From NCBI RefSeq assembly GCF_000763945.1, contig NZ_JQFJ01000002.1, positions 682,001 through 746,000 of the forward strand: a stretch of DNA of 64,000 bases. The letters are read 5' to 3'. The notes under the pieces were generated by a model that saw only the letters and a program-made list of their open reading frames with translations, had not been told where the DNA came from and ran no database searches. The position numbers and the translations under genes were made by a program. Source of the stretch: Sphingopyxis sp. MWB1 (GTDB lineage: Bacteria; Pseudomonadota; Alphaproteobacteria; Sphingomonadales; Sphingomonadaceae). Positions 192 through 18,073 of this stretch are shown here, in pieces (within the stretch, counting starts at the first letter, position 1; every line of letters begins with the position of its first letter).

Positions 192-239
192 GGAACGCTA
201 TACGCAACACGAGCTGCTCATAGTTGCACATATCGCAAC
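192..239. promoter_or_regulatory. Two copies of 17-bp palindromic operator upstream of the Rieske gene
   Basis: GGAACGCTATACGCAAC (192-208) and GTTGCACATATCGCAAC (223-239) each match the pattern GTnnCG-N5-CGnnAC with one mismatch. Their starts are 31 bp apart. They lie in the short gap between the Rieske gene start (155) and the DUF2783 gene end (268). The same pattern recurs in front of the aminotransferase, DJ-1/AhpD, TonB receptor, MFS and ThDP genes. The pattern is read directly; its role as an operator is inferred. Confidence 0.5.
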
Positions 240-267
240 AAGTCGCAGATCTGACATAATCGCCCAA

Positions 268-477
268 TCAGCGCGGTTTGCCTTTCCGGCGCTGGGCGGC
301 GAGCGTGATGGCCTCTGCCACCACTGCCGGATCGCCGATATGGTTGATCAGGATCAGGTTGAGCCGCGCCGCCAGCTTCAGACTCTCTTCGGTCGAGGCA
401 TCCGCGTGCATCGCGATCAGCCTTTCATAGATGTCGTCGACCCCGGCGATATTGGGTTCGGTGATCAGGCCGGTCAT
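268..477 (-). CDS. DUF2783 small protein, possible coupling protein of the flavin monooxygenase
   Basis: This 69-residue protein (MTGLITEPNIAGVDDIYERL...) matches the DUF2783 family as I know it: small, helical, with no cysteine or membrane segment. Its ATG overlaps the TGA of the upstream FAD monooxygenase by 4 bases (ATGA, 474-477), so the two are translationally coupled. In Pseudomonas putida U, 3-hydroxyphenylacetate 6-hydroxylase consists of a large flavoprotein (MhaA) and a small coupling protein (MhaB) of about this size. Gene order and the start/stop overlap make a similar job likely here, but that is inference. The C-terminus is basic (QRRKGKPR). It is the last gene of an operon that starts at the aminotransferase. 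Confidence 0.8.
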   Translation of the reverse strand: MTGLITEPNIAGVDDIYERLIAMHADASTEESLKLAARLNLILINHIGDPAVVAEAITLAAQRRKGKPR

Positions 478-2069
478 AGTTCCTTCCCCTTTGCCCGCGC
501 GATCGCCGCACGGACGGCGTCGGCATCGGGATGGCGCCAGCGCGCGCAGACATAATGATCGGGCCGCACCAGACAGGCGGTGCCGGGTTCGATCGCATAG
601 CGCGCGCGCAGCACATCATCCCCCGTCCCCGGTTCGATGAGCGCAAAGCCGTCGGCCGCCGCGGCGGTCGCGCCGTCGGCCCAGCCGTCGGCGATCAGCG
701 TGAAGCCCGCGCCCAGGCTTTCGAGGAGCCAGCCGGTACCGAGCGGCGCGTCGAGCGCAGGAAAGCCCGGCGCGATGCCCGCGCCGCGCCAGTCGTCGGC
801 ATCGGGGGTGTTCAGCGGGCTGGCGGGCAAGGCCACCGCGGTCGACAGCCGCCCCGAATTGACGAAGGGTCGCGCGAAGGGCAGCTCGTTCGCGAGTTCG
901 AGCACCGCGTCGCGATAGGCGCTGCTCGCCGCCGTTTTTGGCGTCATGAAATCGGTCGAGCGGCTGGAGTTCAGGATATTCTCGTCGGCGATCGCGATCG
1001 CTTCGGTATCATAGCTTTCGAGCAGCACCGCCCCCGCCTCGCCCTTCAGGATCAGGTCTAGCTTCCACCCCAGATTGTCGACATCGGCGAGGCCGCCGTT
1101 GCAGCCGCGCGCGCCAAAGGGCGAAACCAGATGCGCGCTGTCGCCCGCAAAGACCACGCGGCCGTGGACGAAGCGCGCCATGCGGCGGCACTGGAAGGTA
1201 TAGACGCTATACCATTCGGGTTCATATTCGACATCATCGCCCAGCATAGCGCGGACGAGCGGATCGACATTTTCAGGTTTTACAGCGGCTTCGCGGTCAA
1301 TGTTCCAGCCAAGCTGGAAGTCGAGCCGCCACACATCGTCGGGCTGTTTGTGCATCAGCGCCGACTGGCCGGGGTTGAACGGCGGGTCGAACCAGAACCA
1401 GCGTTCGGACGGCCGATCCCCCTTCATCTTCACATCGGCGATGAGGAAATTATCCTCGAACACCCGGCCTTCGAAATCGAGGCCGAGCGCGTCGCGCACC
1501 GCCGAGCGGCTGCCGTCGCAGGCGATGAGCCATTCGGCGTCGATGCGATAGCTGCCCTCTGCCGTTTCGACCGTCACGCGGACGCCGTCGGCGTGTGTCT
1601 CTACCCCGCCCAGCCGATGGCCCCAGCGCAGGTCGACATTGGGCAGCGCGCCGAGCGCGTCGATCAGCCGATCCTCGACATGATATTGCTGGATGTTGAT
1701 GAAGCCGGGGCGCTTTTGATTTTTGACCGGCAGCATGTCGAACTGGAACACCGGTTCTTCGCGGTTGCCCCAGAACACCTTGCCGACGTTCCAGACCACG
1801 CCCTTTTCGACCATCGCGTCGCCGACCCCCAGCCGGTCGAAAATGTCGAGCGAGCGTTTGGCAAAGCAGATCGCCTTTGACCCCGCCGCCACGAAATCGA
1901 GCTGTGCGAGCAGCACCACCGGATGGCCGCGCCGCCCGAGGTCAAGCGCCATGGCGAGACCCACCGGCCCCGCCCCGACGATGACCAGCGGCGCCTGCTG
2001 CAACGATGCAGCGGGGTGCGGCGCGGCGCCGATATCGCGCCACACCGGAATATTCGCGACATTGGCCAT
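474..2069 (-). CDS. FAD-dependent aromatic monooxygenase (MhpA/MhaA-like)
   Basis: A 531-residue class A flavoprotein hydroxylase. The FAD dinucleotide motif VGAGPVG is at 31-37, the DG motif (ACDGSRSAVR) at about 183-192, and the second FAD motif (FAGDSAHLVSPFGARGCNGG) at about 307-326. Its length suits the MhpA-like branch, which has a C-terminal thioredoxin-like domain. Such enzymes use NAD(P)H and O2 to hydroxylate phenols. The surrounding genes make and cleave homogentisate, so ring hydroxylation of a hydroxyphenylacetate-type substrate to homogentisate is plausible, as for MhaA of P. putida; this is inference. It follows the MBL-fold gene by 6 bp and overlaps the DUF2783 gene by 4 bases. 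The family is firm, the substrate is not. Confidence 0.85.
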   Translation of the reverse strand: MANVANIPVWRDIGAAPHPAASLQQAPLVIVGAGPVGLAMALDLGRRGHPVVLLAQLDFVAAGSKAICFAKRSLDIFDRLGVGDAMVEKGVVWNVGKVFWGNREEPVFQFDMLPVKNQKRPGFINIQQYHVEDRLIDALGALPNVDLRWGHRLGGVETHADGVRVTVETAEGSYRIDAEWLIACDGSRSAVRDALGLDFEGRVFEDNFLIADVKMKGDRPSERWFWFDPPFNPGQSALMHKQPDDVWRLDFQLGWNIDREAAVKPENVDPLVRAMLGDDVEYEPEWYSVYTFQCRRMARFVHGRVVFAGDSAHLVSPFGARGCNGGLADVDNLGWKLDLILKGEAGAVLLESYDTEAIAIADENILNSSRSTDFMTPKTAASSAYRDAVLELANELPFARPFVNSGRLSTAVALPASPLNTPDADDWRGAGIAPGFPALDAPLGTGWLLESLGAGFTLIADGWADGATAAAADGFALIEPGTGDDVLRARYAIEPGTACLVRPDHYVCARWRHPDADAVRAAIARAKGKEL

Positions 2070-2075
2070 GGCGCG

Positions 2076-3035
2076 TCAGCCCTGCAACTGGTCCCAGACC
2101 TCTCGGTCGCGCTCCATCGTCCAGATGCGCGGCCGTTCGATCCCGTCAAATTCGTCCCACAGGCGCTGGACGTTGAACGGCAGGCAATGTTCGAAGATCG
2201 GCCAATGGCCGAATTTGGGGGCGAGCGCCGCATGGGTCGCCTCGAACGCATCTTTGAGCGTCCCGCCGCGCTTGTGCGCCGCGCCGACATGTTCGATCAT
2301 GCCGTTCAGAAATTCGCGCGTCTGTTCGACCGCGGCGTCAACCTGTGCCCGCCCGTTCGCGACGGCGCCGCGTCCGCCGACCAGATGTTCGGCCTGAAAC
2401 GCCTTGACCCGGTCGAGCGTGTCCGACGCCCAGTCGAAGTGAAAGGCATCGCCGGTGTAGAGCGCGGCCTGCGCCTCGACCAAGTCGCCCGCGAAGAGCG
2501 TGCCGCTCTTTTCATGCCAGACGGCGATGTCGCCCTCTGTATGCCCGCGTCCGCAAAATTGCAGCTCAAGCCGCCCGCGATCGCCGCCCAGTTCGATCAC
2601 ATGATGGTCGGCAAAGGTGATTGTCGGGCGCGTGAGGCCGGGAATTTCCTCCGGCTGTTTGAACAGGCGCGGCATCCGGCCGAACTCGCTGGCCCAATCC
2701 TGTTCGCCGCGTTCCTCGACCAGCGCGGCGGTCGCGTCGCTCATGATGATGTCTTGGGCATCAAAGGCGCTGGCGCCGAGCACGCGGACGGCGTGATAAT
2801 GGGTGAGCACCAGATAGCGCACCGGCTTTTGCGTGTGCTGGCGCAGCTGCGCCAGCCAGTCGCGCGCGGCGGCGGGGGTGGCCCGCGCCTCGATGCAGAC
2901 GATGAAATCCTCGCCCTCTACCGCGCCGACATTGGGGTCGCCCTCTGCGGTCAGCGCATAGACGCCGTCGGCCAGAACCTCGAGCGTTTCCTTCTTTTCG
3001 GTCATGTCGGCCGACGATGCGAACGGCTTTGCCAT
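2076..3035 (-). CDS. MBL-fold metallo-hydrolase with a degenerate second zinc site
   Basis: A 319-residue metallo-beta-lactamase-fold protein. The usual HxHxDH motif reads THYHAVRV: H79 and H81 are kept, but the Asp and His that follow are Val83 and Arg84. The third Zn1 histidine (H165 in GRGHTEG) and the bridging Asp (D184 in FAGDLV) are present. The final Zn2 histidine, normally in a GHG turn, appears to be Arg222 (GGRGAV). Thus the Zn1 ligands persist while three Zn2 ligands are gone. Its reaction is unknown; a mononuclear hydrolase or lyase acting on a ring-cleavage or CoA intermediate is possible. It lies between aminotransferase (stop at 3050) and FAD monooxygenase in one tight operon. 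The start has a GAGGGAG ribosome-binding site about 10 bases upstream. Confidence 0.85.
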   Translation of the reverse strand: MAKPFASSADMTEKKETLEVLADGVYALTAEGDPNVGAVEGEDFIVCIEARATPAAARDWLAQLRQHTQKPVRYLVLTHYHAVRVLGASAFDAQDIIMSDATAALVEERGEQDWASEFGRMPRLFKQPEEIPGLTRPTITFADHHVIELGGDRGRLELQFCGRGHTEGDIAVWHEKSGTLFAGDLVEAQAALYTGDAFHFDWASDTLDRVKAFQAEHLVGGRGAVANGRAQVDAAVEQTREFLNGMIEHVGAAHKRGGTLKDAFEATHAALAPKFGHWPIFEHCLPFNVQRLWDEFDGIERPRIWTMERDREVWDQLQG

Positions 3036-3049
3036 GGCGATATTCTCCC

Positions 3050-4237
3050 TCAGTCGCGGCTGACGGCCGCGATCGCATCGGCGACCCGGTCGACATTATT
3101 GTTGTTGAGCCCCGCGATGTTCACGCGGCCCGAATTGGTGACATAGACATGATGATCGCTGCGCAGCTGCTCAACGCCTTCGGGGGTGATGCCCAGCATG
3201 GTGAACATGCCGCGCTGGCGCGCGATGAAGCTGTAATCGCGCGCGCTTTGCCCCGCGAGGCGCGACGACAGGCGCGCGCGCATCGCATTGATACGGTCGC
3301 GCATCGTGCGCAGCTCAATCTCCCACCCGCGGCGCATGTCGGCATCGCCGAGCACGCGCGCGACGACCGCGGCGCCATGATCGGGCGGCATCGAATAGAG
3401 GGTGCGTGCGACGGGCAGCGTGTGCGCATGGGCAAGCGCCGCATCCGTTGCATTGGCGCCCACCAGCGTCAGCGCGCCGACCCGTTCGCGATAGACCGCG
3501 AAATTCTTGGAATAAGAGCTGGCGACGATCATTTCGGGCAGCCGTTCGGCGAGCAGGCGAATGCCCGCCGCATCCTCGTCGATCCCGTCGCCGAGCCCCA
3601 GATAGGCAAGGTCGACGAGCACCCCGGAGCCGGTCTTTGCGACGATGTCGGCAACCGTGCCCCACTGATCGAGGTCCAGGTCGGCGCCGGTCGGATTGTG
3701 ACAACAGCCGTGGACGAGCAAGGTATCGGCGCTGGTCATGCCGGCAAGGCATGCCATCATCTCGTCAAAGCGCAGCGCCCCGGTGGCGAGATCATAATAG
3801 GGATAGACGACGAGTTCGTGCCCGCTTGCCTTCAGCAGCACGGGATGGTTCGGCCAGGTCGGGCCGGGCACGAAGATGCGCCCGCCGGGGCGCAGCCGCC
3901 GGATCAGGTCCGACGCCAGCCGCAGCGCGCCGGTGCCGCCGGGGGCCTGGATCGTCCGGCTGCGCTGGTGTGCGTCGCTGCCTTCACCGAAGAGAAGCGC
4001 GCGGGTGTGGTCATTATATTCGGGATGCCCCGCCGACGACAGATAGCGCTTGCTCGGCTGGTTTTCGACCAGCCAGCGTTCCGCGGCCTTGACGCAGTCG
4101 AGCACGGGGGCCTGGCCGTTTTCGTCATTATAGATGCCGATGCCCAGATCGACCTTGTCGGGGCTCGAATCGCTCGCAAGCAATTGGGCGAGCCCAAGAA
4201 TGGGATCGACCGGCGGATCGGGAAGCTGAGCAAACAT
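3050..4237 (-). CDS. Aromatic-amino-acid/aspartate aminotransferase, class I
   Basis: A 395-residue PLP enzyme of the AspC/TyrB type, opening MFAQLPDPPVDPILGL. The NPTG motif is at about 181-184, and the Schiff-base lysine is K244 in SYSKNFAVYRERVG. The ATG at 4237 is preferred over upstream in-frame codons because GGAGAG lies a few bases before it, and homologues start here. In a homogentisate gene cluster the likely reaction is transamination of tyrosine or phenylalanine to 4-hydroxyphenylpyruvate or phenylpyruvate. It is the first gene of the four-gene operon aminotransferase / MBL / FAD monooxygenase / DUF2783. Two 17-bp palindromes (4251-4287) sit directly upstream and probably control it. 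No 4-hydroxyphenylpyruvate dioxygenase gene lies in the window. Confidence 0.88.
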   Translation of the reverse strand: MFAQLPDPPVDPILGLAQLLASDSSPDKVDLGIGIYNDENGQAPVLDCVKAAERWLVENQPSKRYLSSAGHPEYNDHTRALLFGEGSDAHQRSRTIQAPGGTGALRLASDLIRRLRPGGRIFVPGPTWPNHPVLLKASGHELVVYPYYDLATGALRFDEMMACLAGMTSADTLLVHGCCHNPTGADLDLDQWGTVADIVAKTGSGVLVDLAYLGLGDGIDEDAAGIRLLAERLPEMIVASSYSKNFAVYRERVGALTLVGANATDAALAHAHTLPVARTLYSMPPDHGAAVVARVLGDADMRRGWEIELRTMRDRINAMRARLSSRLAGQSARDYSFIARQRGMFTMLGITPEGVEQLRSDHHVYVTNSGRVNIAGLNNNNVDRVADAIAAVSRD

Positions 4238-4250
4238 AATCTCTCCATCT

Positions 4251-4287
4251 GTTCCATTATGCGATACAGCGTAGTGCATTGCGTTAC
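4251..4287. promoter_or_regulatory. Paired 17-bp operator upstream of the aminotransferase operon
   Basis: GTTCCATTATGCGATAC (4251-4267) and GTAGTGCATTGCGTTAC (4271-4287) each match GTnnCG-N5-CGnnAC with one mismatch, and their starts are exactly 20 bp apart. They lie 14 bp before the aminotransferase ATG and after the end of the FAD oxidase pseudogene. A repressor on this pair would sit over the promoter or ribosome-binding region. Function is inferred. Confidence 0.55.
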
Positions 4288-4315
4288 AATAGGGCAATCG
4301 CCCATGCGGCGAAAA

Positions 4316-5714
4316 TCACCCCGAAAGCGGCGCCGCTTCGCCGAGCATGTCCACCAGCGCACCGGGATTCATCGCTTCGGCCGGATCGAGCGCGCGCTTG
4401 ACCGCGCGGAACAGGTCGATTTCGACCGTCCCCACCGCGCGCGCGACCGCGTCGCGCATGCTGCGCCCGACACCATGTTCGGCGCAGATCGACCCGCCAA
4501 GCGACAGCACGATCGCCTCGATCGCGGCGCTGATCGACGGCCCCGCGGCGGTGAGCGAAGCGGGTGCGTGCGCGCCGCGATGGACCGAGAAATGGATATT
4601 GCCGTCGCCCACATGCCCGACGCTGAGGCATTGGCTGCCCGGCAGCAGGCGTTCGGCGGCGGCGCTTGCCTGATCGATGAAAGCGGGGACGGCGCCAAGC
4701 GGCACCGCGACATCGACGCTGACCGACGGTTTCTGCGCAATCTTGCCCTCCACCACCATTTCGCGGATGCGCCACAATTCGCGCCGCTGCGTTTCATTTT
4801 CGGCGAGCGTGCCGCCGCGGACCACCCCATCGTCAAAGCCCTGCGCAATCGCCTGTTCGACCGCGGTGCGGATCGGGAAATCGGCGGCGGAGGACGCAAA
4901 TTCGGCAAGCACGAACCAGCCATGATCGCCCATGTCGGGGACACGCAGCGCGGGGTTGCGCAGCAGAGCCCAGTCGCACCCGCGCCGCTGGACCAGTTCG
5001 AACGCGACGACCAGATCGCCGAGCGCGGCGCGCAGCCGGTGGAGCAGCGTGAGCGTCGCCGCAGGGCTGTCGACCGCCAGCCAGGCGGTTTCGACCTGCC
5101 GCCACGCGGGCACGATGCGCAGCGCAGCGGCGGTGACGACGCCCAGCGTCCCCTCTCCCCCGATGAACAGCTGTTTGAGGTCATAGCCCATATTATTCTT
5201 TGCGACGCGGCGCAGCCCGTCCCACACGCGCCCGTCGGGCAGCACCACCTCCAGCCCCAGCACCTGGGCGCGCATCACGCCATGGCGGAGCGCGCGCACC
5301 CCGCCGGCATTGGTCGAAACCAGCCCGCCGATCGTCGCGCTTCCCTCTGACCCCAGCCCGAGCGGGATCGCAAAGCCATGTTCGGCAGCGACCGCCTGCA
5401 CATCGGCGAGGATGCAGCCCGCGTCGGCGACGATCGCCCCCGCGTCGGCGTCGACCAACCGGATGCGGTCCATCCGCCGCAGCGAGACGAGCAGCGCCGG
5501 GCGGCACGATCGCGAGGCCAAGGGCGACCGCGCAGCGCACGACATCGGCCAGCTCCGCCGTATCGCGCGGGCGCGCGACCGCGACGGCGTGCGCCGGCCA
5601 GCGCCCCGTCAGGTCGCGATAATAGCTTTCGCAATCCTGATCGCCGTCGAGGACAACTCCGCCGGGAAAGGCGGCCTTCAGCGCCGCCACCGCATCGCCG
5701 TTCCGCATCGCCAT
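4316..5714 (-). pseudogene. FAD-binding oxidase (GlcD/D-2-hydroxyacid dehydrogenase family), disrupted
   Basis: Two reading frames together make one FAD-linked oxidase of the GlcD / D-2-hydroxyglutarate dehydrogenase family. The first runs from the ATG at 5714 (MAMRNGDAVAALKAAFPGGV...) through LGLAIVPPG near 5505. The second takes up at LLVSLRRMDRIR and continues to the stop at 4316, with SEGSATIGGLVSTNAGG, GGEGTLGVVTAAALR and a C-terminal SICAEHGVGRSM block. Intact members have about 15-20 residues between these points, including the GGNTGL-type FAD pyrophosphate loop. Here that segment is missing and the frame changes, so the product should be truncated and lack a key FAD contact. The gene ends the DJ-1 / hmgA / fahA operon. 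A sequencing or assembly deletion cannot be excluded. Confidence 0.8.
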
Positions 5715-5730
5715 CCCCCCTTCTCGATCG

Positions 5731-6987
5731 TCAGCGCGCGTAGGGATCGGCGAGCGCGGGAAGCACCCGCGCGCGGCATTCGCCAAAGCCGATCTCATAT
5801 CCCTCGCCAATGCAGCGGCCGCGCAGGTCGAGCGTGTCGCCATCGGCGACGAAGCTGCGCGTGCCGCCGTCGCCAAGCTTCAGCGGTTCCTTGCCGCCCC
5901 AGCTCATTTCCAGCAGGCTGCCATAACTGCCCGGCTCGGCGCCCGAGATGGTGCCGGTGCCCAGCAGGTCGCCAACCTCCATCCGGCACCCCGCGCTGGT
6001 ATGATGCGCGAGTTGCTGCGCCGCCGAATAATACATGCTGCGATAATTGGTGCGGCTGATCACCGTTTCCGTCCCGCCGTCGGGGGTCAGCGCGACGTCG
6101 AGCGCGATGTCATAGAACATCGGCCCCGGTTCGGTAAGATAAGGGAGCAGCGGCTTTTCGCGCGCGGGCGCGGCGACGCGAAACGGCTCCAGCGCGTCCT
6201 TCATCACGATCCACGCGCCGATCGTCGTCGCGGTAGCCTTGCCCTGAAAGGGACCGAGCGGCTGATATTCCCATGCCTGGATATCGCGCGCCGACCAGTC
6301 GTTCAGCAGCACATAGCCAAAGATCATCGCGTCGGCCTCTGCCACCGTCACCGGCCCGTCGGACGGCTGGCCGACGATCGCGCCCAATTCGAGCTCGATG
6401 TCGAAACGCGCCGAAGGGCCAAAGCGCGGCGCGGCATCGTCGGGACCCTTCACCTGCCCCCACGGCCGCCGCACGTCGCGGCCCGACACCGCCACCGAAG
6501 AGGCGCGGCCATTATATCCGATCGGAAGGTGCAGCCAGTTGGGCGGCAGCGCATTTTCAGGCCCGCGGAACATCGTGCCGACGTTGAAGGCATGCTGGCG
6601 GCTTGCGTAGAAATCGGTGAAGCCCGCGACGCGGAAAGGCATATGCATCACCGCGCCATCCTGCGGCACCAGACATGCCTCGACCGCCGCGCGCGCCTCT
6701 GCGCCTTCGCCGAGCAGGTCGGCAAGCCGCCCGCGCATTGCGCGCCACACCGCCGGTCCCGCCGCCATCACCGCATTCCACGACGGCGCGCCGAACAGCG
6801 GGGCGCCATCGAGCACGATCAGCCCCGCCGCCTCCAGCGCCGCCATGTCGACGATATGGTCACCGATCGCGACCCCGCAGCGCGGCGCCGCGCCGCCGTG
6901 GCTGAACACCCCGCACGGCAGATTGTTGAGCGGAAAGGGACAGCCGGGGGCATTGGCACTTTCGAGCCACGAGTGCATCAGCGCCAT
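5731..6987 (-). CDS. fahA: Fumarylacetoacetase
   Basis: A 418-residue enzyme that hydrolyses fumarylacetoacetate to fumarate and acetoacetate, the last step of the homogentisate pathway. It has the N-terminal FAH domain and the catalytic hydrolase domain. The metal ligands known in mouse FAH are matched by D125 (FTDFYASRQH), E198 and E200 (FDIELELG) and D230 (LLNDWSARD), and the catalytic His by H132. The ATG at 6987 is chosen because AAGGAG precedes it by 6 bases; a TTG two codons upstream lies too close to that site. It lies 45 bp downstream of homogentisate dioxygenase and 16 bp upstream of the broken FAD oxidase. Maleylacetoacetate isomerase is not in the window. Confidence 0.96.
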   Translation of the reverse strand: MALMHSWLESANAPGCPFPLNNLPCGVFSHGGAAPRCGVAIGDHIVDMAALEAAGLIVLDGAPLFGAPSWNAVMAAGPAVWRAMRGRLADLLGEGAEARAAVEACLVPQDGAVMHMPFRVAGFTDFYASRQHAFNVGTMFRGPENALPPNWLHLPIGYNGRASSVAVSGRDVRRPWGQVKGPDDAAPRFGPSARFDIELELGAIVGQPSDGPVTVAEADAMIFGYVLLNDWSARDIQAWEYQPLGPFQGKATATTIGAWIVMKDALEPFRVAAPAREKPLLPYLTEPGPMFYDIALDVALTPDGGTETVISRTNYRSMYYSAAQQLAHHTSAGCRMEVGDLLGTGTISGAEPGSYGSLLEMSWGGKEPLKLGDGGTRSFVADGDTLDLRGRCIGEGYEIGFGECRARVLPALADPYAR

Positions 6988-7032
6988 AAACAACTCCTTG
7001 GAAATTTTCTCTCTATAAACAAACCATATAGG

Positions 7033-8358
7033 TTATAACGGATCGCGGCTTCCATCGAACTTGCGGTCGATCCCCGCCCAGCAATCGGCATAATCGTCCT
7101 GCATCGGCGCTTCGTGCGCCGCCCAATGGGTAAGATGCTGGGGAAAGCGCGTTTCGAACATGAAGCTCATCGTATCGTCGAGCTTTTGCGGCTTGAGGTC
7201 GGCGTTGCTCGCGCCCTCAAAGGCTTCGCGATCGGGGCCGTGGGGCAGCATGCAATTGTGGAGGCTCATCGCGCCGGGGGCAAAGCCATTGGGCTTTGCG
7301 TCATATTCGCCGTAAATATTGCCCATCAGTTCCGACATCACATTCTTGTGATACCACGGCGGCCGGAAACTATGTTCGGCGACCAGCCAGCGTTCGCGGA
7401 ACAGCACAAAGTCGATATTCGCCGTCCCCTCCACTTCCGACGGCGCGGTCAGCACGGTGAAGATCGACGGATCGGGATGGTCGAACAGGATCGCGCCGAC
7501 CGGGCTGTAGGTGCCGAGGTCATATTTGCATGGCGCATAATTGCCGTGCCAGGCCACGACGTCGAGCGGGCTGTGGCCGATCTCAGTCTGGTGAAACTGG
7601 CCGCACCATTTCATGATGAGGGTCGAGGGCGCCTCGCGATCCTCGAACACCGCCACGGGCGTCTTGAAATCGCGCGGATTGGCCAGGCAATTGGCGCCGA
7701 TCGGGCCGCGGTTCGGCAGGTCGAATTTCTGCCCGTAATTTTCGCAGACGAAGCCGCGGCACGGCCCGTCGAGCAGCTCGACGCGGTACACCAGCCCGCG
7801 CGGCAGGATCGCGATTTCGCCGGGTTCGATGTCGACGATGCCAAGCTCGGTCGCAAAGCGCAGCCGCCCTTGCTGCGGCACCACCAGCAATTCGCCGTCG
7901 GCCGAGCAGAAATATTCGTCGGTCATCGACCGGGTGACCAGATAGATATGGCTGGCCATCCCCGTTTGCGTGTTGACGTCGCCCGCAGTCGTCACCGTCC
8001 GCATCCCGGTCACCCAGGTCAGCGGCGCATCTTCGTGCGGCACCGGATTCCAGCGATATTGGCCAAGGCTGGCGACGCCGGGAAGGATGTGCGGCGCCGA
8101 TTTCCAGTGCGGCAGCGCGATTTCCCGAAAGCGGCCGACGTGGCGCACGCTGGGCCGGATGCGATAGCACCAACTGCGTTCATTCTGCCCGCGCGGCGCG
8201 GTGAAGGCGGTGCCCGACAATTGTTCGGCATAGAGGCCATAAGGGCATTTCTGGGGCGAATTCTGCCCCTGCGGCAGCGCGCCGGGAAGCGCCTCTGTCT
8301 CGAAATCATTACCAAAGCCCGGCATATATTGCGGGGCATTGCTTCCCTTGTTCGTCAT
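7033..8358 (-). CDS. hmgA: Homogentisate 1,2-dioxygenase
   Basis: A 441-residue non-haem Fe(II) dioxygenase that opens the homogentisate ring to maleylacetoacetate. The iron ligands of the human enzyme (His335, Glu341, His371) correspond in spacing to H337 (WYHKNV), E343 (MSE) and H373 (MLPHGPD). The opening [18 protein letters not shown] is the family signature. The ATG at 8358 has GGAGAGGG upstream; an in-frame ATG further up lacks one. The gene is 38 bp downstream of the Tat-exported DJ-1 protein and 45 bp upstream of fahA, so the three are probably one transcript from the operator region at 9393-9495. Confidence 0.97.
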
Positions 8359-8396
8359 CCTGCCCTCTCCACCCGGCAAAGCCATAATCCGTTCCT

Positions 8397-9308
8397 TCAT
8401 TGTAGCGCGGCGGTGCCGCCCGCGCTGCCAGCCACGTCCGCCCAGCCCGCCGCGACCGCCGCCGCCTGTTCGCGGGCGCGCAGCAACGTGGGCCGGCGTG
8501 CCGCGCTGACCGCCTGAACAATCGCGGGCGGGGCCGTTTCGGGCGTGCCCGCGTGAAAGGGCGGCGCGGGCGCATATTCGATGACAAGCTGGATCCGCTG
8601 CGCCGCCTCCTCTCCCCGAATCAGCGCGGCGAGCGTCAGGCCGAAATCGATGCCGGCAGTGACGCCGCCGCCGGTCAGCCGATTGCGATCGACCACGACG
8701 CGATCGGCCGATGGAATGGCGCCGAGCAGCGCCAGTTCGTCGCGCACCGTCCAGTGGCTGGTTGCGCGATAGCCGCGCAGCAGCCCCGTCGCGCCGAGCA
8801 CGAGCGAACCGGTGCAGTCGCTGGTGACATAGCGCGCGCGTGCGCCGCGATCGGCCAGGAAGGCGAGCACTTCTGCATCGGCCATCACCGCGACCGACCC
8901 ATCGAGCCCGCCGGGCACGAACAATATGTCGAGATCGGCCGGACAATCGGCCAGCCGCGTCGTCGGCGTCACAGCGATGCCGACGTCGGTGGCGACGGGG
9001 TCGAGCGTTTTCCAGACCAGGTGGATATCGGCGCGCATCATGTTGAAAACGGTGAGCGGTCCGACAAGATCCTGCAGCACCATCTTGGGATGGACAAGCA
9101 TGGCGATCACCGGCCGGTCGCCACCGGCCGCGCGCTGTGCGCCCGCCCCGGGCCCCGGGACCGAAGGTGTCGCTGGCGCTGGCCCGGCAACATTGCCCTG
9201 CCCCGCCTGCGCCGCCCCAGCCGAGGCGTCGAACGCCGCCGTCGCCATCGCGCCGCTCAGAAACCCCCGGCGGCTGGCGCCTGAAACCGGATCGAAACCA
9301 CTGGTCAT
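8397..9308 (-). CDS. Tat-exported DJ-1/PfpI family protein (isonitrile hydratase-like)
   Basis: A 303-residue protein. The N-terminus carries a twin-arginine signal ([15 protein letters not shown], about residues 12-26), followed by a Pro/Gly/Ala-rich linker to about residue 63 and one DJ-1/PfpI domain. The nucleophile-elbow cysteine is C165 in [18 protein letters not shown], the arrangement seen in isonitrile hydratase and GlxA-type regulators. No helix-turn-helix domain follows, so it is not an AraC-type regulator. GGAGAGAGG precedes the ATG at 9308. It is the first gene of the homogentisate operon and faces the operator region. Export to the periplasm is strongly suggested; the substrate is unknown, and hydration or deglycation of an aromatic nitrile or carbonyl compound is only a guess. 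Confidence 0.85.
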
Positions 9309-9392: not shown

Positions 9393-9429
9393 ACAATGAT
9401 TTACGTTACGATGTTTCGCAATGCGATAC
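9393..9429. promoter_or_regulatory. Paired 17-bp operator (second copy perfect) between DJ-1 and AhpD-like genes
   Basis: GTTTCGCAATGCGATAC (9413-9429) matches GTnnCGnnnnnCGnnAC fully and has perfect dyad arms around one central base. Exactly 20 bp upstream, 9393-9409 keeps the right half TACGTTAC with three mismatches on the left. The pair lies 85 bp before the DJ-1/hmgA/fahA operon start. This 310-bp divergent region (9309-9618) holds no gene. Confidence 0.55.
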
Positions 9430-9478
9430 AGATTGACTGGCATCACGCCGATGGCGGCACCTCAACCCGAAGTAGTTT

Positions 9479-9495
9479 GTTGCGCAATGCGCGAC
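9479..9495. promoter_or_regulatory. Perfect 17-bp palindromic operator upstream of the AhpD-like gene
   Basis: GTTGCGCAATGCGCGAC matches GTnnCGnnnnnCGnnAC without mismatch and is symmetric apart from the two nn pairs. It lies 123 bp before the AhpD-like gene and 66 bp from the other perfect copy, so the divergent promoter may be controlled from both sides. Confidence 0.5.
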
Positions 9496-9618
9496 TAAAT
9501 CTCATAGGAAGAGACATGATATCTCGGCTGTGCGATGCTGATTGGCAGGTAGGTGTCGGCGTCGTCCGCGCCGATCCGCACGTTGCGGGCCATATTATGA
9601 AAGGGAGACTGAAAGGCA

Positions 9619-10212
9619 ATGGCACATCTCAGACCGCTTGAACTCGACGAGGTGCAGGACGAGGAAATCCTGGCGGCGTGGAAGGAGGGCATCAAGAAGC
9701 GCGGCTTCGTCGTCAACGCCGCGCGCACCATGGCGCGCCGCCCGAACATATTGAAGGCCTATACCAAGCTCAACAATGTCGTGATGTACGAAGGCACGGT
9801 CGACGGCCCGCTCAAGATGCTGCTCACCTTGGCCCGCAGCCTGGCGTCGGGATGCCGTTATTGCCAGTCGCACATGACCAACTTGTCGAACCGCTATGGC
9901 GCGTCGGACGAAAAGATCCAGGCGCTGTGGGAGTTTGAAACGAGCGAGCTGTTCAGCGACGCCGAACGCGCCGCGATCCGCGTCGCCTTCAAGGCCGGGC
10001 AGCTTCCGAACGAGACGACCAAGGAAGATATCGACGCGCTGCTCGAACATTTCGACGAGGGCGAAGTGATCGAGATCGTCGCCTGCATCTGCCTGTTCGG
10101 CTGGCTCAACTGCTGGAACGAAACGCTGGCGACGCAGGCCGAGGATGTCGCGGTCGAAGCGACGAGCCGCATCCTGGGCGGCCAGGGCTGGGAACCCGGC
10201 AAGCACGCCTGA
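9619..10212 (+). CDS. AhpD-like carboxymuconolactone decarboxylase family protein
   Basis: A 197-residue all-helical protein of the AhpD/CMD family. The redox motif SGCRYCQSH puts C79, C82 and H85 in the CxxCxxH arrangement that gives AhpD proteins peroxidase or disulfide-reductase activity, so this is a thiol redox protein and not a true decarboxylase. It is divergent from the homogentisate operon across a region with three copies of the shared palindrome, and is followed after a hairpin by a thioredoxin-like gene that could reduce it. GGGAG and AAAGG lie upstream of the ATG. A protective role against peroxides or quinones made during homogentisate turnover is a reasonable inference. Confidence 0.85.
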   Translation: MAHLRPLELDEVQDEEILAAWKEGIKKRGFVVNAARTMARRPNILKAYTKLNNVVMYEGTVDGPLKMLLTLARSLASGCRYCQSHMTNLSNRYGASDEKIQALWEFETSELFSDAERAAIRVAFKAGQLPNETTKEDIDALLEHFDEGEVIEIVACICLFGWLNCWNETLATQAEDVAVEATSRILGGQGWEPGKHA

Positions 10213-10221
10213 CCGGCCAAC

Positions 10222-10262
10222 GCCCGCGGCAGCGACCCTAAACGCCGCCGCGGGCCCTTTTG
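10222..10262 (+). terminator. Hairpin with T-run between AhpD-like and thioredoxin-like genes
   Basis: GCCCGCGGC (10222-10230) pairs with GCCGCGGGC (10247-10255), followed by CCTTTT. It looks like an intrinsic terminator or attenuator, and would limit read-through into the thioredoxin-like gene 19 bp downstream. Confidence 0.6.
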
Positions 10263-10280
10263 CGCGAGAAGGAGAATGCG

Positions 10281-10601
10281 ATGGACATTCACGACGCCGA
10301 TTTCGAACAACAGGTGCTGAAGGCCGAAGGCCCGGTGCTGGTCGATGTGTGGGCGCACGGCTGCGGCCCGTGCAAGATGGTCGGCGCGGGGCTGGAACGT
10401 ATCCACGCGCGCGATCCCGGCGCCTTTACGCTGGTCTACGCCAATCAGCAGGATATTCCCGAAGCCGCCGCGCGGCTGAGCGTCCGCGCATCGCCGACGC
10501 TGATCCTGTTCCACGATGGCGAGGAAATCGCCCGCCGTTCGGGCGCGCTGATCGAATCGCAACTGGTCAATTGGCTCGACCAGTCGCTGCCGAAGAGCTG
10601 A
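10281..10601 (+). CDS. Thioredoxin-like protein with CGPC motif
   Basis: A 106-residue single-domain thioredoxin-fold protein with the redox motif C28-G-P-C31. The usual WAxWCGPCK reads WAHGCGPCK, so the tryptophan next to the first cysteine is replaced by glycine. The cis-proline region (ASPTLILFHDGEE) is present. AGAAGGAG precedes the ATG at 10281, which decides the start. There is no signal peptide, so it is cytoplasmic. Its place behind the AhpD-like gene suggests the two work as a redox pair. It is not the main thioredoxin by sequence; its specific partner is unknown. Confidence 0.85.
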   Translation: MDIHDADFEQQVLKAEGPVLVDVWAHGCGPCKMVGAGLERIHARDPGAFTLVYANQQDIPEAAARLSVRASPTLILFHDGEEIARRSGALIESQLVNWLDQSLPKS

Positions 10602-10640
10602 TCCGGCACCAGCGGCGGCCGCATGAGTGGCCTAGCGAAT

Positions 10641-10669
10641 GGCCCCGTCGGGAAAGGCGGGGCCTTTTT
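10641..10669 (+). terminator. Intrinsic terminator after the thioredoxin-like gene
   Basis: GGCCCCG (10641-10647) pairs with CGGGGCC (10658-10664), followed by five T (10665-10669). It lies 40 bp after the thioredoxin-like stop codon. Confidence 0.8.
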
Positions 10670-10888
10670 CGTGCGGGTGTTGAGGTGGTCGGTTCAGAAC
10701 GGCGCGAAGGACCGAATAGGGGTGGAGAAGGTGGAGTCGTGAGAACTCATCGGCTTCAATTTGATTACTGAAGATCCCAACATTTGGCGAATGCAGACAA
10801 GACGCAGAGGAATGGTGCGACCGTAAGTGACAGCGGCATCGCCAGAGAATGTCCGCCATCGGTCGCTAGCCGACGAACCGCCTTTTCC

Positions 10889-10971
10889 GCTCGTGTCAAG
10901 CGAAGTCGAGACACCCGTCGACACAGCACCTGGCCCGAGAGGCATCTCGACTTCGCTCGATGCGAACGGGG
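10889..10971. repeat. Dispersed inverted repeat, family A, copy 1
   Basis: The left arm contains GTCAAGCGAAGTCGAGA and the right arm TCTCGACTTCGCTCGATGCG, separated by a variable centre; total length is about 83 bp. Very similar elements occur at 38018-38098 and 39421-39501. RNA from it would form a long stem-loop. It resembles REP/MITE-like intergenic repeats. Confidence 0.75.
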
Positions 10972-11025
10972 CTTAGATAGGCTCCAACGTCCACACCTGG
11001 CCGTTTCCTGCCAAACCTTTTCTTT

Positions 11026-11053
11026 GTCATCCCGGTCTTGGTCCGGGATCCAT
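11026..11053. repeat. Dispersed hairpin repeat, family B, copy 1
   Basis: GTCATCCCGG and CCGGGATCCA form a short inverted repeat. Related copies lie at 32769-32794 and 48577-48603. All are intergenic. Confidence 0.65.
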
Positions 11054-11093
11054 TTGTGCGCCAGAGTGACCGAAAGCCACCATGTGCGGAGAT

Positions 11094-11128
11094 AAAAGGA
11101 CCCGCCTATCCCGGGGGATAAGCGGGCC
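11094..11128 (-). terminator. Intrinsic terminator of the TonB-dependent receptor gene
   Basis: Read on the reverse strand, a GGCCCGC arm and a GCGGGTCC arm enclose a TATCCC-rich inner stem, followed by TTTT. It lies 44 bp beyond the receptor stop codon. Confidence 0.7.
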
Positions 11129-11171
11129 GATTTTCGCGGGGTCATTTTATGGGGAAATGCCCCGCGAGCTT

Positions 11172-13448
11172 CTAGAAGTTATAGCGCAGGTTCATGCCGA
11201 ACTCGCGCGGGCGACCGACGTCCATCTGGCGCATTCCGATCGTTTTAGGCGTCGCGAAATCGATGCCGCCGATGAAATACTCTTTGTCAGCAAGGTTGGT
11301 GGCAAAGGCCGCGATGCTCCATCGGTCGTCGGGCGCATTATACTGAATGCGCGCGGTCAGCAGGCCATAGGGGTCGAGGATGACGGTGTTACCGTCGCTC
11401 GATGTCGTGCCTTGGCTCGACCGGTAGTTATAGTCCATGTTCGCGACGATTTCACCGGCGCCCACCGGCTGGCGGAGCTGGGCGCCGACTGTATAGTTCC
11501 ACTTCGGCGCACGCAGCACACGACTGTCCGTGGTCAGGCCCTGCGCCGACCCGATGCTCTTATACTGGGCATCGAGATACCCGAGTGTCCCCTGGAGCCT
11601 TAGCCAGTCGGCCACGGCCAGCGTCGATTCCAGCTCAAAGCCTTTGAACACCGATTTGCCCACATTCTGGATGTAGGTGATGTTCTGCGACGCATCGAAG
11701 GCACTGAGCTGCTGGTCGCGATATTTGCTGTAAAAGCCCGTTAGGTTGAACCGCAGAATATCGAGCGGGTCCGACCGGAGGCCGATTTCATAGGTATCGA
11801 CCGTTTCAGGGTCATAGGCCAGGAAGGGCTGGATGCGGCCGCGATAGCTTTGCCCCGTACCCGGTTCGGTCGAGAGAAGATTTTCGTTGAAGCCGCCGCT
11901 GCGGAAGCCGCGGGCCCATGACGCATAGGTCATGACATCGGGCGTCCACTGATATTCGACGCTGATGCGCGGCGAGAAATTATCCCAGCTCTGCTTGTCG
12001 CGGCCTTCCAAAATCCCGTTGGGATAGGGGGTGCCATCCGGCCGCGGGGTCAGATTGCGCGCCCGGCCCGACTTCGTATCCTTGCTGTAACGCATTCCCA
12101 ATGTCGTCGAAAGTTTGTCCGTCAGTTTGTAGGTGCCTTGGAAAAAGGCCGCATAGCTGTCGACCTTGTGATTATCGATCAACAGCCGGGGATGCGGAAA
12201 CTGGGAATCAAAAGTCGTCGATTGCATCCGCTGATCGCTGGGCGTTTCCTGCATATAATAAAGGCCGCTAACCAACTTCAGCCGATCGTCGAACAAGGCG
12301 CCCGACAATTGCAACTCCTGCGAGAACTGCTCGATCTTGCGATCATAGGAAATGTCATAGAGGGGGATGGGCGTGCCGTCCCAATCAGAATCGATCAGCA
12401 CATTTGCATTGAGGTAAGCCGTTACCGACTTCAATGATATGGTATCGGAAAGATCTACATTGACGACCCCGGACAGGCCATAACCGTCATAATCATAGCC
12501 CGTGTTCGTACCCCCATAGAGGGTGTAATGATCGGGGCTGAGATAGGTATCGTCATAGGTGATGCCGAGCTTCGTCTGCGTGGTGCGCGAGAAGAGCGCA
12601 TCAGGGCTGATCTTGTCGATGATGAACGCCCGCCCCCGGGTTTTGGTGCGGATCTTGTTGGCTTCCAGGTCGATCGTGACGTTCTCGCCCGCCAGAAAGC
12701 GCATTTCCAGTCGGCCAACGCGCGTATTTTCGTCGCCATCGCGCTTGTCGTCGATGACATGTTTGACGAAGCCGTCGCGCTGCAAAGCCCCTAAGGTCGC
12801 CTTGGCGAAGACATTGTCACTCAGCGGAACATTGACAACGGCCTTCAGGTCGAGGCGGTCGAAACTGCCCACTGTGGCATCGACATAGCCACCGAAATCT
12901 GGCCCTGGCTTGCGCGAAATATAGCGGATAGCGCCGCCAATAGTATTCTTGCCATATAGGGTGCCCTGCGGGCCACGCAGCACCTCGATGCGCTCTACGT
13001 CGACGATGTTGATCAACGTATTGTCGCTGCGGCTATAGAAAACATCGTCAATATAGAGGCCGACGGCCTGATCAAAGGTGATGCCCGACCGGTCCTGGCC
13101 GAAGCCGCGGATGAAGAAGCCGCCATTCTGGGCGCCAGTGGTCGATTGGCTGCCAACGAGAACATTCGGCGCGATACTGCCGACGTCGAGCAGGCTGGAC
13201 ACATTTTTCGCTTGAAGGTCGGATTCGCCGAGCGCGGTAATCGCAAGCGGAGTTGTCTGAAGCCGCTCCTCCTGTCGCCGCGCCGTCACGACGATATCAG
13301 CTATCGCATGACGATCCGCGCTGTTAGCCGTATCCGATGCAGCCGTCGCTTGCGCTTGGGCTTGTACCGGAGCTACTAAAGCAGCGCTCGCCAATAACCC
13401 GGCTGTAAGCTGGCGCCCCACAGATATGCTGTCGCTTTTGTAAAACAT
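11172..13448 (-). CDS. TonB-dependent outer-membrane receptor
   Basis: A 758-residue receptor. It opens with a signal peptide (hydrophobic LTAGLLASAALVAPVQAQA), then a TonB-box-like region (ADIVVTARRQEE), the plug domain (LLDVGSIAPNVLVG..., VDVERIEVLRGPQGTLYGKNTIGG) and a 22-strand barrel ending in an aromatic residue (LRYNF). Sphingomonads use many of these for aromatic, sugar or siderophore uptake. The ATG at 13448 with GGGAGGA upstream is preferred over a GTG five codons earlier. A pair of palindrome-like sites (13466-13502) lies directly upstream and the gene is divergent from an MFS carrier, so outer- and inner-membrane uptake of the same compound is likely. The ligand is unknown. Confidence 0.93.
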   Translation of the reverse strand: MFYKSDSISVGRQLTAGLLASAALVAPVQAQAQATAASDTANSADRHAIADIVVTARRQEERLQTTPLAITALGESDLQAKNVSSLLDVGSIAPNVLVGSQSTTGAQNGGFFIRGFGQDRSGITFDQAVGLYIDDVFYSRSDNTLINIVDVERIEVLRGPQGTLYGKNTIGGAIRYISRKPGPDFGGYVDATVGSFDRLDLKAVVNVPLSDNVFAKATLGALQRDGFVKHVIDDKRDGDENTRVGRLEMRFLAGENVTIDLEANKIRTKTRGRAFIIDKISPDALFSRTTQTKLGITYDDTYLSPDHYTLYGGTNTGYDYDGYGLSGVVNVDLSDTISLKSVTAYLNANVLIDSDWDGTPIPLYDISYDRKIEQFSQELQLSGALFDDRLKLVSGLYYMQETPSDQRMQSTTFDSQFPHPRLLIDNHKVDSYAAFFQGTYKLTDKLSTTLGMRYSKDTKSGRARNLTPRPDGTPYPNGILEGRDKQSWDNFSPRISVEYQWTPDVMTYASWARGFRSGGFNENLLSTEPGTGQSYRGRIQPFLAYDPETVDTYEIGLRSDPLDILRFNLTGFYSKYRDQQLSAFDASQNITYIQNVGKSVFKGFELESTLAVADWLRLQGTLGYLDAQYKSIGSAQGLTTDSRVLRAPKWNYTVGAQLRQPVGAGEIVANMDYNYRSSQGTTSSDGNTVILDPYGLLTARIQYNAPDDRWSIAAFATNLADKEYFIGGIDFATPKTIGMRQMDVGRPREFGMNLRYNF

Positions 13449-13465
13449 GCAATCCTCCCTCACCT

Positions 13466-13502
13466 GTCTCGCATTTTGCGTTTTTGTCTCGCATAGCGCG
13501 AT
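13466..13502. promoter_or_regulatory. Paired 17-bp operator upstream of the TonB receptor
   Basis: GTCTCGCATAGCGCGAT (13486-13502) matches GTnnCG-N5-CGnnAC with one mismatch. GTCTCGCATTTTGCGTT (13466-13482), exactly 20 bp away, shares the left half GTCTCGCAT with mismatches on the right. The pair lies 18 bp before the receptor ATG. The gene-free stretch 13449-13791 otherwise holds only the operators at 13681-13717. Confidence 0.45.
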
Positions 13503-13680
13503 ACATGTGAGCAGAAGAACCGAAAACAGACCAAGGGGCGGAGTTGCACTAGGCGATACTCCTTCGCAATGGCAACGCGAGCGAATTTGTGTTTCTTAAT
13601 GCCAAGCGCCGACGCCTGGCTTCCTAAACGCCCGGGAACGCTTGTCTGCGACTAGGACGCCCAGTAAACCCCCTCATGTC

Positions 13681-13717
13681 GTCTCGTATGGCGATACTCA
13701 ATTTCGATTGACGCGAC
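13681..13717. promoter_or_regulatory. Paired 17-bp operator upstream of the MFS transporter
   Basis: GTCTCGTATGGCGATAC (13681-13697) fits GTnnCG-N5-CGnnAC fully and ATTTCGATTGACGCGAC (13701-13717) with one mismatch. The starts are exactly 20 bp apart. They lie 75 bp before the transporter ATG. Confidence 0.55.
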
Positions 13718-13791
13718 AAATCTCCTGCTCCATTCTTCTAAAATCCAAGGATGAGCGACCATAGTCGCCGTACACTTGAGGAGGGGAGCGA

Positions 13792-15042
13792 ATGACCAGT
13801 TTAACCGCGACGGACGACCACCGCCATGCAAAGTGGAATGTCGCTTGCGCCTTTATCATTTTCTTTGCGGTGCTGGGCATTCCGGCCATTATGATACCCG
13901 TATTATACGGGCCAATCATTGACGAAACGGGCTGGTCTCGCGGTGACGTCGCCTTATTAAGTTCCCTGAAATTCGGCGCGGGCGCTATCGCCGCATATCT
14001 CACTGGCCCGTTGGTAGAGCGCTACGGGGTGCGCCCCGTCACTATCATATGCTCCATTTTATCGGGAATCGCGCTGCTAATGATGGTCGGTGTGGACAGC
14101 CTTTGGACCCTCTACGCCGTTGGCATCTTTCTGGGCATCAGCGCCCTGGGGGTCGCAACCGCCATGAAAATCCTCGTGTCGCAATGGTTTTCGCGTAACC
14201 AGGGGCTCGCGATCGGCATAGCGCTGATGGGCATCAGCGTCGCTGGGGTTATTGTGCCTTATATCACCACGCTGCTTTCCCAGGCCTATGGCTGGCGCAT
14301 GGCATGCGCCATTATGAGCCTTGGCATATGGGGCATTGCCCTTCCGCTCTTTATCATGCGCGCCCGTGAACGCAGCACGGAACAAGCGACCGCTGCGGTA
14401 CAACAACTGGCGCTGGATCATCCCGACGCCCCAGGTTTTGCCGACATTCGCTTCACGCGCTTTTTCATCACTGCGGCGATCATCAACGTGCTGATCGGCA
14501 TGGTCGACCATGGCATGTCGACCCATCTTATCATCTATCTCGACCGCGATGTTCAATTGGGCGCCGGAGTGGCCGCGCTCGGCTTTTCGGCGGTGATGGT
14601 AATGAGCAATATCGGCAAAGCCGGTTATGGCTGGCTGTTCGACCGCTTCTCGGTTCGCGGCGTCGCCTTTTGCTGGTTCGTCGTCGCGGCCGGGGTCGCG
14701 CTGACCTTCCCCATCGCCGGGACCGCGACGATGCTTCTTTTCGCATTCATATATGGCCCCACCCAGGGCGGCATGATGATCAACGTGCCCATTCTGGCGA
14801 AACATGTGTTCGGTCCGCGCGCCATGGCGCGCGCGATCGCGGTGCTGACCACCTTTTTCATGGCGGGCAGCGCGATCGGCCCCGCGCTGGCAGGATATCT
14901 GTATGACGCCACCGGGTCCTATCACCTGCCCTTTGCGATCTTCATCGTGTCGGCGCTGGTGGCGGGCGTGCTAGCGCTGACTATCCGCCCCGCCTTTCGG
15001 CCGATGCCCGAAGAAGGCGGAAAACTAGCCCCCGCGAACTGA
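13792..15042 (+). CDS. MFS transporter (monocarboxylate/oxalate-formate antiporter-like)
   Basis: A 416-residue inner-membrane carrier with about 12 hydrophobic segments in two halves. The first loop has YLTGPLVERYGVRPV and the mid-loop has WLFDRFSVRG, as in MFS proteins. Overall it resembles the OFA / monocarboxylate branch, which moves small organic acids. GGAGGGGAGCG precedes the ATG. It is divergent from the TonB receptor and 114 bp upstream of the ThDP enzyme gene, each with its own operator pair, which suggests uptake of the substrate handled by the ThDP enzyme and M20 deacylase. The substrate cannot be told from sequence. Confidence 0.9.
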   Translation: MTSLTATDDHRHAKWNVACAFIIFFAVLGIPAIMIPVLYGPIIDETGWSRGDVALLSSLKFGAGAIAAYLTGPLVERYGVRPVTIICSILSGIALLMMVGVDSLWTLYAVGIFLGISALGVATAMKILVSQWFSRNQGLAIGIALMGISVAGVIVPYITTLLSQAYGWRMACAIMSLGIWGIALPLFIMRARERSTEQATAAVQQLALDHPDAPGFADIRFTRFFITAAIINVLIGMVDHGMSTHLIIYLDRDVQLGAGVAALGFSAVMVMSNIGKAGYGWLFDRFSVRGVAFCWFVVAAGVALTFPIAGTATMLLFAFIYGPTQGGMMINVPILAKHVFGPRAMARAIAVLTTFFMAGSAIGPALAGYLYDATGSYHLPFAIFIVSALVAGVLALTIRPAFRPMPEEGGKLAPAN

Positions 15043-15090
15043 GTTTCCGACAGCAGAAGCCGATTCCGACAAAGAATCCGCTTGCGCTTT

Positions 15091-15127
15091 GGATCGAAAT
15101 TCGCAACAAAGTCTCGTATTACGTTAC
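15091..15127. promoter_or_regulatory. Paired 17-bp operator upstream of the ThDP enzyme operon
   Basis: GTCTCGTATTACGTTAC (15111-15127) matches the pattern fully and has perfect arms GTnnCGTA / TACGnnAC. GGATCGAAATTCGCAAC (15091-15107) has one mismatch. The starts are exactly 20 bp apart, 29 bp before the chosen start codon. Confidence 0.55.
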
Positions 15128-18056: not shown

Positions 18057-18073
18057 TTGCGGAGAATGCAACG

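Follow-up and report, generated by a model that had tools for sequence, protein, structure and literature searches.

How is a bacterial gene cluster controlled when one 17-bp palindrome recurs in front of its promoters, often as two copies at a fixed distance? The question is raised by a 64,000-nucleotide stretch of the Sphingopyxis sp. MWB1 genome (C2:682001-746000, here called the window; genome G000, 3.12 Mb in 5 contigs), in which copies of the palindrome precede genes for a Rieske oxygenase, an aromatic aminotransferase (AT), a DJ-1 protein followed by hmgA and fahA, a CMD/AhpD-like protein, a TonB-dependent receptor, a major facilitator superfamily (MFS) transporter and a thiamine diphosphate (ThDP) enzyme. 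A sequence-only reading of the window had listed 13 copies and named a single IclR gene, at 18074, as the candidate binder. Our analysis leads us to propose that the palindromes are probably operators of two paralogous IclR regulators, IclR-A (encoded at 18074) and IclR-B (encoded outside the window), which together would control one aromatic catabolic and uptake cluster.

A palindrome with fixed spacing

All 13 copies are present where they had been read. The eight fixed bases are fully matched at 9413, 9479, 13681 and 15111, as claimed; the single mismatch attributed to most of the others is found at 192, 223, 4251, 4271, 13486, 13701 and 15091, and 9393 and 13466 carry three each. The bare 8-base pattern GTNNCGNNNNNCGNNAC occurs perfectly 107 times in the whole genome versus 243 times for a reversed control, so the palindrome as such is not over-represented, and we discarded it as a genome-wide test. 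Within the window it matches perfectly at 7 positions, three of which (22780, 32396 and 44019) are away from the named promoters, and positions with at most one mismatch number 70 versus 45.9 ± 6.4 in shuffled sequence.

Because the bare pattern is weak evidence, we used the base preferences of related genomes, in the form of a position weight matrix (PWM) made from 29 relatives' sites (58 rows, both orientations entered). The matrix was applied to 78 kb, comprising the window and 14 kb on its left, with 400 kb from elsewhere in the genome as background. Scores of at least 13 bits are reached at 15 positions in the 78 kb versus 4 in the background. These 15 are 13 promoter sites (two listed as left of the window, and one, 13543, absent from the sequence-only reading), the coding position 22780 and 26447. 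Ten of the 13 copies first read reach this score and 192 has 12.8 bits; the weak copies 9393 (4.8 bits) and 13466 (8.9 bits) have scores that 308 and 47 of 399,680 background positions also attain. Once base preferences are used, the repeated palindromes are real and far above chance. Their intergenic placement, also part of the first reading, is borne out: 15 of the 16 sites of at least 12.5 bits in the annotated 41 kb lie outside annotated genes, the exception being 22780.

A distance of exactly 20 bp had been read at five of the seven places and holds at those five; the Rieske copies are 31 bp apart, and 9479 has a weak partner at 9499 (7.4 bits). When a pair is defined as two sites of at least 6 bits each with a summed score of at least 20 bits, the 78 kb contain six pairs at exactly 20 bp and one each at 12, 21, 31, 32, 57 and 66 bp, whereas the background contains none at any spacing from 10 to 70 bp. 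The fixed spacing matters. The six are four of the five pairs first read, 9479/9499, and a pair left of the window at C2:676217/676237 (GTAGCGCTATGCGTGAC, then 20 bp on GTAGCGAATTACGATAT), between a LigB-type dioxygenase gene (-) and an FAA-hydrolase gene (+); 9393/9413 is missing because 9393 falls below the 6-bit floor.

A whole-genome search with a model of the relatives' site set, 150 of its 284 candidates being scored, reported a single place at E ≤ 10 (9413, E 1.6); no other single site is therefore significant by itself. The scan for paired copies that had been named beforehand as a check used a 37-bp model built from 13 pairs, six of them from this genome. All six places that it returned at E ≤ 10 in the 3.12 Mb lie within C2:676217-697127; since the model was built with those same pairs, it is the lack of places elsewhere that is informative.

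Conservation at related promoters

The other check named beforehand, conservation in related promoters, also came out positively. In a survey of partial loci from ten genomes including G000, the motif is present at promoters of all nine others. A 20-bp pair precedes AT in G000, G042, G079, G080, G082, G084, G085 and G086, with a weak one in G081; the G144 stretch contains no AT. The ThDP promoter pair is shared by the orthologues of G085 and G086 and by a 42% homologue in G084, and the TonB receptor pair by TonB2 homologues in G144 and G086 and by more distant receptors in G080 (a 27% homologue), G042 and G079. The Rieske promoter element recurs in eight other genomes. The pair in the LigB/FAA-hydrolase gap was found in G000 only.

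A pair search of 60 genomes of the genus, with stricter filters that lose weak matches, returned pairs at E < 0.1 in G000 and G042 only, and one each in G004, G026 and G047 at E 0.36-0.96. Among G000-G047, IclR-A orthologues were likewise found only in G000 (607 bits) and G042 (299 bits), the rest scoring at most 55 bits; the best match in any other of 79 genomes has 75.7 bits (G074). The IclR searches left aside G089-G100. Rieske orthologues at least 77% identical were found in 3 of the 396 genomes searched within the order (this one, G144 and G367, which seems to be the same as G082), which is why we call the pathway uncommon. Six further loci (L173-L178), whose Rieske homologues are 50-59% identical (52-60% in the order-wide search), were used as negatives and have no operator pair nearby.

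A contig scan with four IclR sequences from G000 and G042 gave 20 loci, in sphingomonads, a metagenome-assembled genome (MAG) labelled Niveispirillum and MAGs titled Woeseiaceae, Gammaproteobacteria, Pseudomonadales and Proteobacteria. In distant loci (L063-L073, IclR 30-35% identical, some resembling one another), a PWM from 14 sites of our own genome, 12 of them inside the window, finds a site of at least 15 bits no more than 150 bp ahead of the IclR match in 9 of the 11, and only 3 matches in the other 177 kb. In these nine (L063-L070 and L072) the operator copy runs directly into TATAAT (8 of 9) or TATACT (1 of 9), where it would overlie the -10 box; this suggests autorepression.

Two classes of probable operator and two IclR proteins

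The Rieske pair is of a different make from the rest. It forms a 31-bp element with fixed inner halves, CGCAAC-N14-GTTGC, in eight genomes including this one (N15 in G086), and the mean frequency of the commonest base is 0.57 in its spacer versus 0.82 and 0.86 in its two sites. GTTGC-type half-sites make up 24 of 36 in nine Rieske pairs versus 8 of 108 in 27 20-bp pairs (Fisher 4e-12, a value overstated because the sequences are related). This count omits two 20-bp pairs with one GTTGC-type half each (9479/9499, and L185+186:11968 in G086), with which the figure becomes 10 of 116, and its Rieske class takes in neither the 31-bp pairs found upstream of AT in G082 and G084 nor a weak 31-bp pair that lies behind AT in G086 (21410). 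The 20-bp pairs have mostly GTATCG, GTCTCG, GTAACG and GTCACG halves.

We scanned 426 kb of cluster loci, some overlapping, for GCAAC-N14-GTTGC and found 11 matches, ten at Rieske/IclR-A promoters and one in coding sequence of G081. The N15 variant has 3 matches, with just the G086 one placed at such a promoter, and N13 has 1. The 400 kb background, part of the 478 kb of this genome covered for the 31-bp class, has a single N13 match and no N14 or N15 match. A further N14 match lies inside the IclR match of L067. Every one of the ten genomes found with IclR-A has the element before the Rieske gene, IclR-A or both (N15 in one). Seven genomes (eight with G083, which is nearly identical to G082) hold one copy in a divergent Rieske/IclR-A gap. 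In the two genomes where these genes are apart, G085 (on two contigs) and G000 (window 204 and 18037), each gene has its own copy. The copy before IclR-A in G000, absent from the sequence-only reading, has its left site (18025) within the 3' end of the M20 gene.

IclR-A and IclR-B are 36% identical over 169 residues in this genome. Of the 10 genomes in which both were sought, 9 contain the two, as does G144; in the tenth, G081 (a MAG titled Gammaproteobacteria), B was found with no match to A. Relatives are 52-61% (A) and 60-85% (B) identical to the proteins here, and in a tree taken as unrooted the A (9) and B (10) sequences separate with support of 0.996 and 0.886. Their recognition helices are very similar: TKSRASRHL in 8 of 9 A proteins (TKSRVSRHM in G086) and TKARVSRHL in 10 of 10 B proteins. 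Scores against the PcaR/PcaU/PobR subfamily (TIGR02431) were 79.8 and 56.7 bits, below the cut-off of 284.75.

Because the 31-bp element tracks IclR-A, has its own copy at each gene when Rieske and IclR-A are apart, and is missing before Rieske in G081, the genome with only B found, where a 20-bp pair stands instead, we assign this class to IclR-A. The 31-bp element more likely belongs to IclR-A and the 20-bp pairs, with less certainty, to IclR-B. In G042, G079, G082 and G084, AT has a 20-bp pair at its head and is immediately followed by IclR-B; in G000 IclR-B stands behind LigB, again with such a pair. In G144 a strong site and a weak partner directly precede B, and in G080 B comes after a TonB homologue that has a weak pair before it.

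Proposed control and the alternatives

We propose that each 17-bp palindrome takes one IclR dimer and that two dimers would bind together on one helix face. IclR-A would use the 31-bp, three-turn pairs before the Rieske gene and before itself, and IclR-B the 20-bp, two-turn pairs before AT, ThDP/M20, the TonB receptor, MFS, DJ-1 (with hmgA and fahA) and LigB/FAA-hydrolase. Both would act as repressors, released by a compound of the pathway. We give an even chance to a stricter form of this proposal, in which paralogues with near-identical helices would split one regulon by geometry, A reading GTTGC halves three turns apart and B reading GTATCG/GTCTCG-type halves two turns apart, with the code kept across several genera and also where A stands away from Rieske. 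If the split is true, the cluster offers a compact natural system for how sister IclR proteins avoid each other's operators.

Measured from the start codons (Rieske, AT, DJ-1, TonB, MFS, ThDP and IclR-A), the paired sites are centred at -10 to -113, and site 9479 is at -132 relative to the CMD start (9619). IclR sites usually fall at -20 to -80 (PMC8222616), a zone in which many of the paired sites are found. We consider the most likely mode of action to be repression by paired dimers that a compound of the pathway would relieve. A sigma-70 promoter scan of window positions 1-18300 found 4 promoters versus 4.6 in shuffles, no better than chance, and was therefore left unused.

Several observations weigh against the proposal. 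The DJ-1, MFS and CMD sites, at -83 to -132, also fit activation, and could serve it. The match of class to paralogue is drawn from linkage and from one MAG (G081), possibly incomplete. The 20-bp pair before AT in G082 and G084 is accompanied by a third site, 31 bp away and with GTATCG/GTCTCG-type halves, so this spacing is not exclusive to the GTTGC class. Half types are mixed in site 9479 and in the distant-locus sites. IclR-A is here the last gene of the ThDP/M20 operon, which a 20-bp pair heads, and in G081, G085 and G086 the B unit lacks a strong 20-bp pair at its head. There is no pair at the ThDP homologues (41-43%) of G042, G079 and G080, and no site upstream of the IclR match in L071 and L073; the pair model reaches E values of only 0.26-0.78 in G087 and G088. 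Finally, the relatives' sites were chosen through the earlier pattern or through a PWM built on this genome, so the relatives' and own motif sets depend on each other to some extent, which does not apply to the comparison with background.

The alternative that survives best, though we consider it doubtful, is that both proteins bind both classes with differing affinity, or as mixed tetramers, in one jointly controlled regulon. It would account for the co-occurrence of A and B, for the 31+20 triples at the AT promoters of G082 and G084, and for the single GTTGC-type half in 8 of the 27 counted 20-bp pairs, including 15091/15111. It sits poorly with the near confinement of GCAAC-N14-GTTGC, in the loci examined, to Rieske/IclR-A promoters and its presence at both genes when they are apart.

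We regard it as unlikely that IclR-A alone binds the 20-bp and 31-bp copies alike while IclR-B acts elsewhere, which is what the idea of a single binder at 18074 becomes now that a second IclR is known to co-occur. The place of IclR-A at the end of an operon with a 20-bp pair at its head, the likeness of the two helices and the single PWM that covers both classes agree with it. G081 weighs against it, having B and no A match and yet retaining 20-bp pairs at the Rieske promoter and, weakly, at that of AT; the position of B behind pair-headed AT genes in four genomes and the different half-site make-up of the classes point the same way. We have therefore demoted the sole binder to a rival.

It is highly improbable that a regulator of another family binds, such as the MarR protein encoded at 26531 or an unlinked protein; a 14.2-bit site at 26447 does stand before the MarR gene, but the motif and spacings match the description of IclR group 1, and sites precede IclR homologues in 9 of the 11 distant loci, which upholds the view that the motif is of the IclR kind. 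That the pattern is an effect of chance or composition, as the shortfall of bare-pattern matches against the reversed control might suggest, is scarcely credible given the PWM scores against background, the pair spacing and the conservation.

Homogentisate genes

The sequence-only reading had joined the homogentisate genes to this regulon, a link that looks local. DJ-1 lies behind the TonB receptor and its pair in G144 and G086 and is therefore a conserved member, whereas no other genome was seen to have hmgA and fahA following DJ-1. The hmgA genes of G080, G082 and G084 (3 of 3) lack a pair in the first 1.5 kb upstream, a span that does not cover a promoter farther off. The upstream region in G081 is cut by a contig end, and 5 of the 10 genomes are without an hmgA match. 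The hpd gene of this genome (L197) has no site of at least 9 bits. A homogentisate regulon of the HmgR type finds no support, as hmgA in these three genomes has no pair within 1.5 kb and hpd here has no site. The homogentisate genes look like a local addition to the regulon, which suggests that in this genome they are wired to the regulators of another pathway.

Relation to known IclR systems

The palindrome described for IclR group 1 is GKTYCRYW3-4RYGRAMC (Suvorova and Gelfand 2021, PMC8222616). Majority bases here, in the consensus GTnTCGnAnTnCGAnAC, fit its core as given in the main text (C5, R6, Y7, W8-10, R11, Y12, G13). The same source reports tandem sites with 18-22 nt between centres in 94 orthologous groups, an over-representation of three- and four-turn spacing, and aromatic metabolism as frequent; it also mentions IclR proteins that bind as tetramers. 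The 20-bp pairs have the tandem spacing and the Rieske and IclR-A elements stand at 31 instead. With core and tandem spacing matched, the finding belongs to a known kind. A sharing-out of two spacings between two co-occurring paralogues does not appear in the consulted parts of the text of PMC8222616. The site of HmgR, the IclR homogentisate repressor of Pseudomonas putida, ATTACGTTATTCGTAAT, shares the CG-N5-CG core (main text of PMC8222616). HmgR and the proteins here are alike in family and in having hmgA/fahA under such sites, and differ in that hmgA is so placed only in this genome and hpd is not.

PheR, from the sphingomonad Sphingobium sp. SHPJ-2, is an IclR protein that represses aromatic uptake and catabolism, in its case for a phenanthrene pathway (PMC13273656). 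Its essential 5'-GCAACG-3' resembles the GCAAC half-site here, while its 44-bp footprint is described, in the portion of that paper available to us, without the paired-palindrome architecture seen here. As far as searched, paired IclR operators are already known and the split between two regulators appears new, and it is unproven. TtgV, an efflux regulator of the IclR family (PDB 2xrn and 2xro, the latter presumably containing DNA), is matched by the IclR-A/B profile at E 5.6e-10 and is distant in sequence. What the locus offers is a case in which sequence alone outlines a conserved regulon for an uncommon aromatic pathway and points to its two likely regulators, of which IclR-B is encoded beyond the window.

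Features of the cluster

Table 1. Predicted operators and genes of the cluster (window positions unless marked C2)
Feature	Position	Strand	Remarks
31-bp-spaced pair before Rieske oxygenase gene	192..239 (192-208, 223-239)	-	inner halves CGCAAC-N14-GTTGC
20-bp-spaced pair before AT gene	4251..4287 (4251, 4271)	-	gene start 4237
Strong site 9413 and degenerate 9393 before DJ-1/hmgA/fahA	9393..9429	-	DJ-1 start 9308
Strong site facing CMD/AhpD-like gene	9479..9495	+	reading frame start 9619; weak partner 9499
20-bp pair before TonB-dependent receptor gene	13466..13502	-	13466 weak, 13486 strong; gene start 13448
Extra site between TonB receptor and MFS genes	13543..13559		15.0 bits
20-bp pair before MFS transporter gene	13681..13717	+	gene start 13792
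20-bp pair before ThDP enzyme/M20/IclR-A	15091..15127	+	ThDP start 15157
31-bp-class element before IclR-A	18025..18072 (18025-18041, N14, 18056-18072)	+
Rieske oxygenase gene	start 155	-	
FAD-dependent hydroxylase-like gene	474..2069	-
Aromatic amino acid transaminase (AT) gene	3050..4237	-	NF006719 over cut-off
DJ-1, homogentisate 1,2-dioxygenase and fumarylacetoacetase genes	5731..9308	-
TonB-dependent receptor gene	11172..13448	-
MFS transporter gene	13792..15042	+
ThDP enzyme and M20 deacetylase-like genes	15157..18056	+
IclR-A regulator gene (P0001)	18074..18910	+	HTH_IclR 33.4 bits (cut-off 22), IclR_C 59.8 bits (cut-off 24)
IclR-B gene, outside the window, ~7 kb to its left	C2:674343-675101		HTH_IclR 51.7 bits (cut-off 22); IclR_C not among matches at E ≤ 1e-5

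A set of genes of the meta-cleavage type extends to the left of the window (L016 6340-14155, C2:674340-682155) and encodes a LigB-type dioxygenase, whose gene is followed by that of IclR-B, two FAA hydrolases, an ACMSD-like decarboxylase recognised by a PDB match, an aldehyde dehydrogenase and the Rieske oxygenase. The clues to the substrate are the AT match over its cut-off, the LigB-type dioxygenase, and HpaG-like FAA hydrolases and an HpaE-like aldehyde dehydrogenase below their cut-offs. They point to, and do not settle, an aromatic-amino-acid-like compound degraded by a meta-cleavage route.

Three smaller observations concern the rest of the window. A 41-codon reading frame (9516-9641), preceded by AGGAAGAG, begins 20 bp past site 9479 and runs into the beginning of the CMD gene. 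The site ahead of the MarR gene that fits the relatives' motif (26447-26463) has no other site of at least 11 bits within 70 bp and is possibly due to chance. Pfam matches identify a row of amino-acid kinase, PhyH dioxygenase, class III aminotransferase and MarR genes at 21604-27037, which we take to resemble an ectoine/hydroxyectoine cluster.

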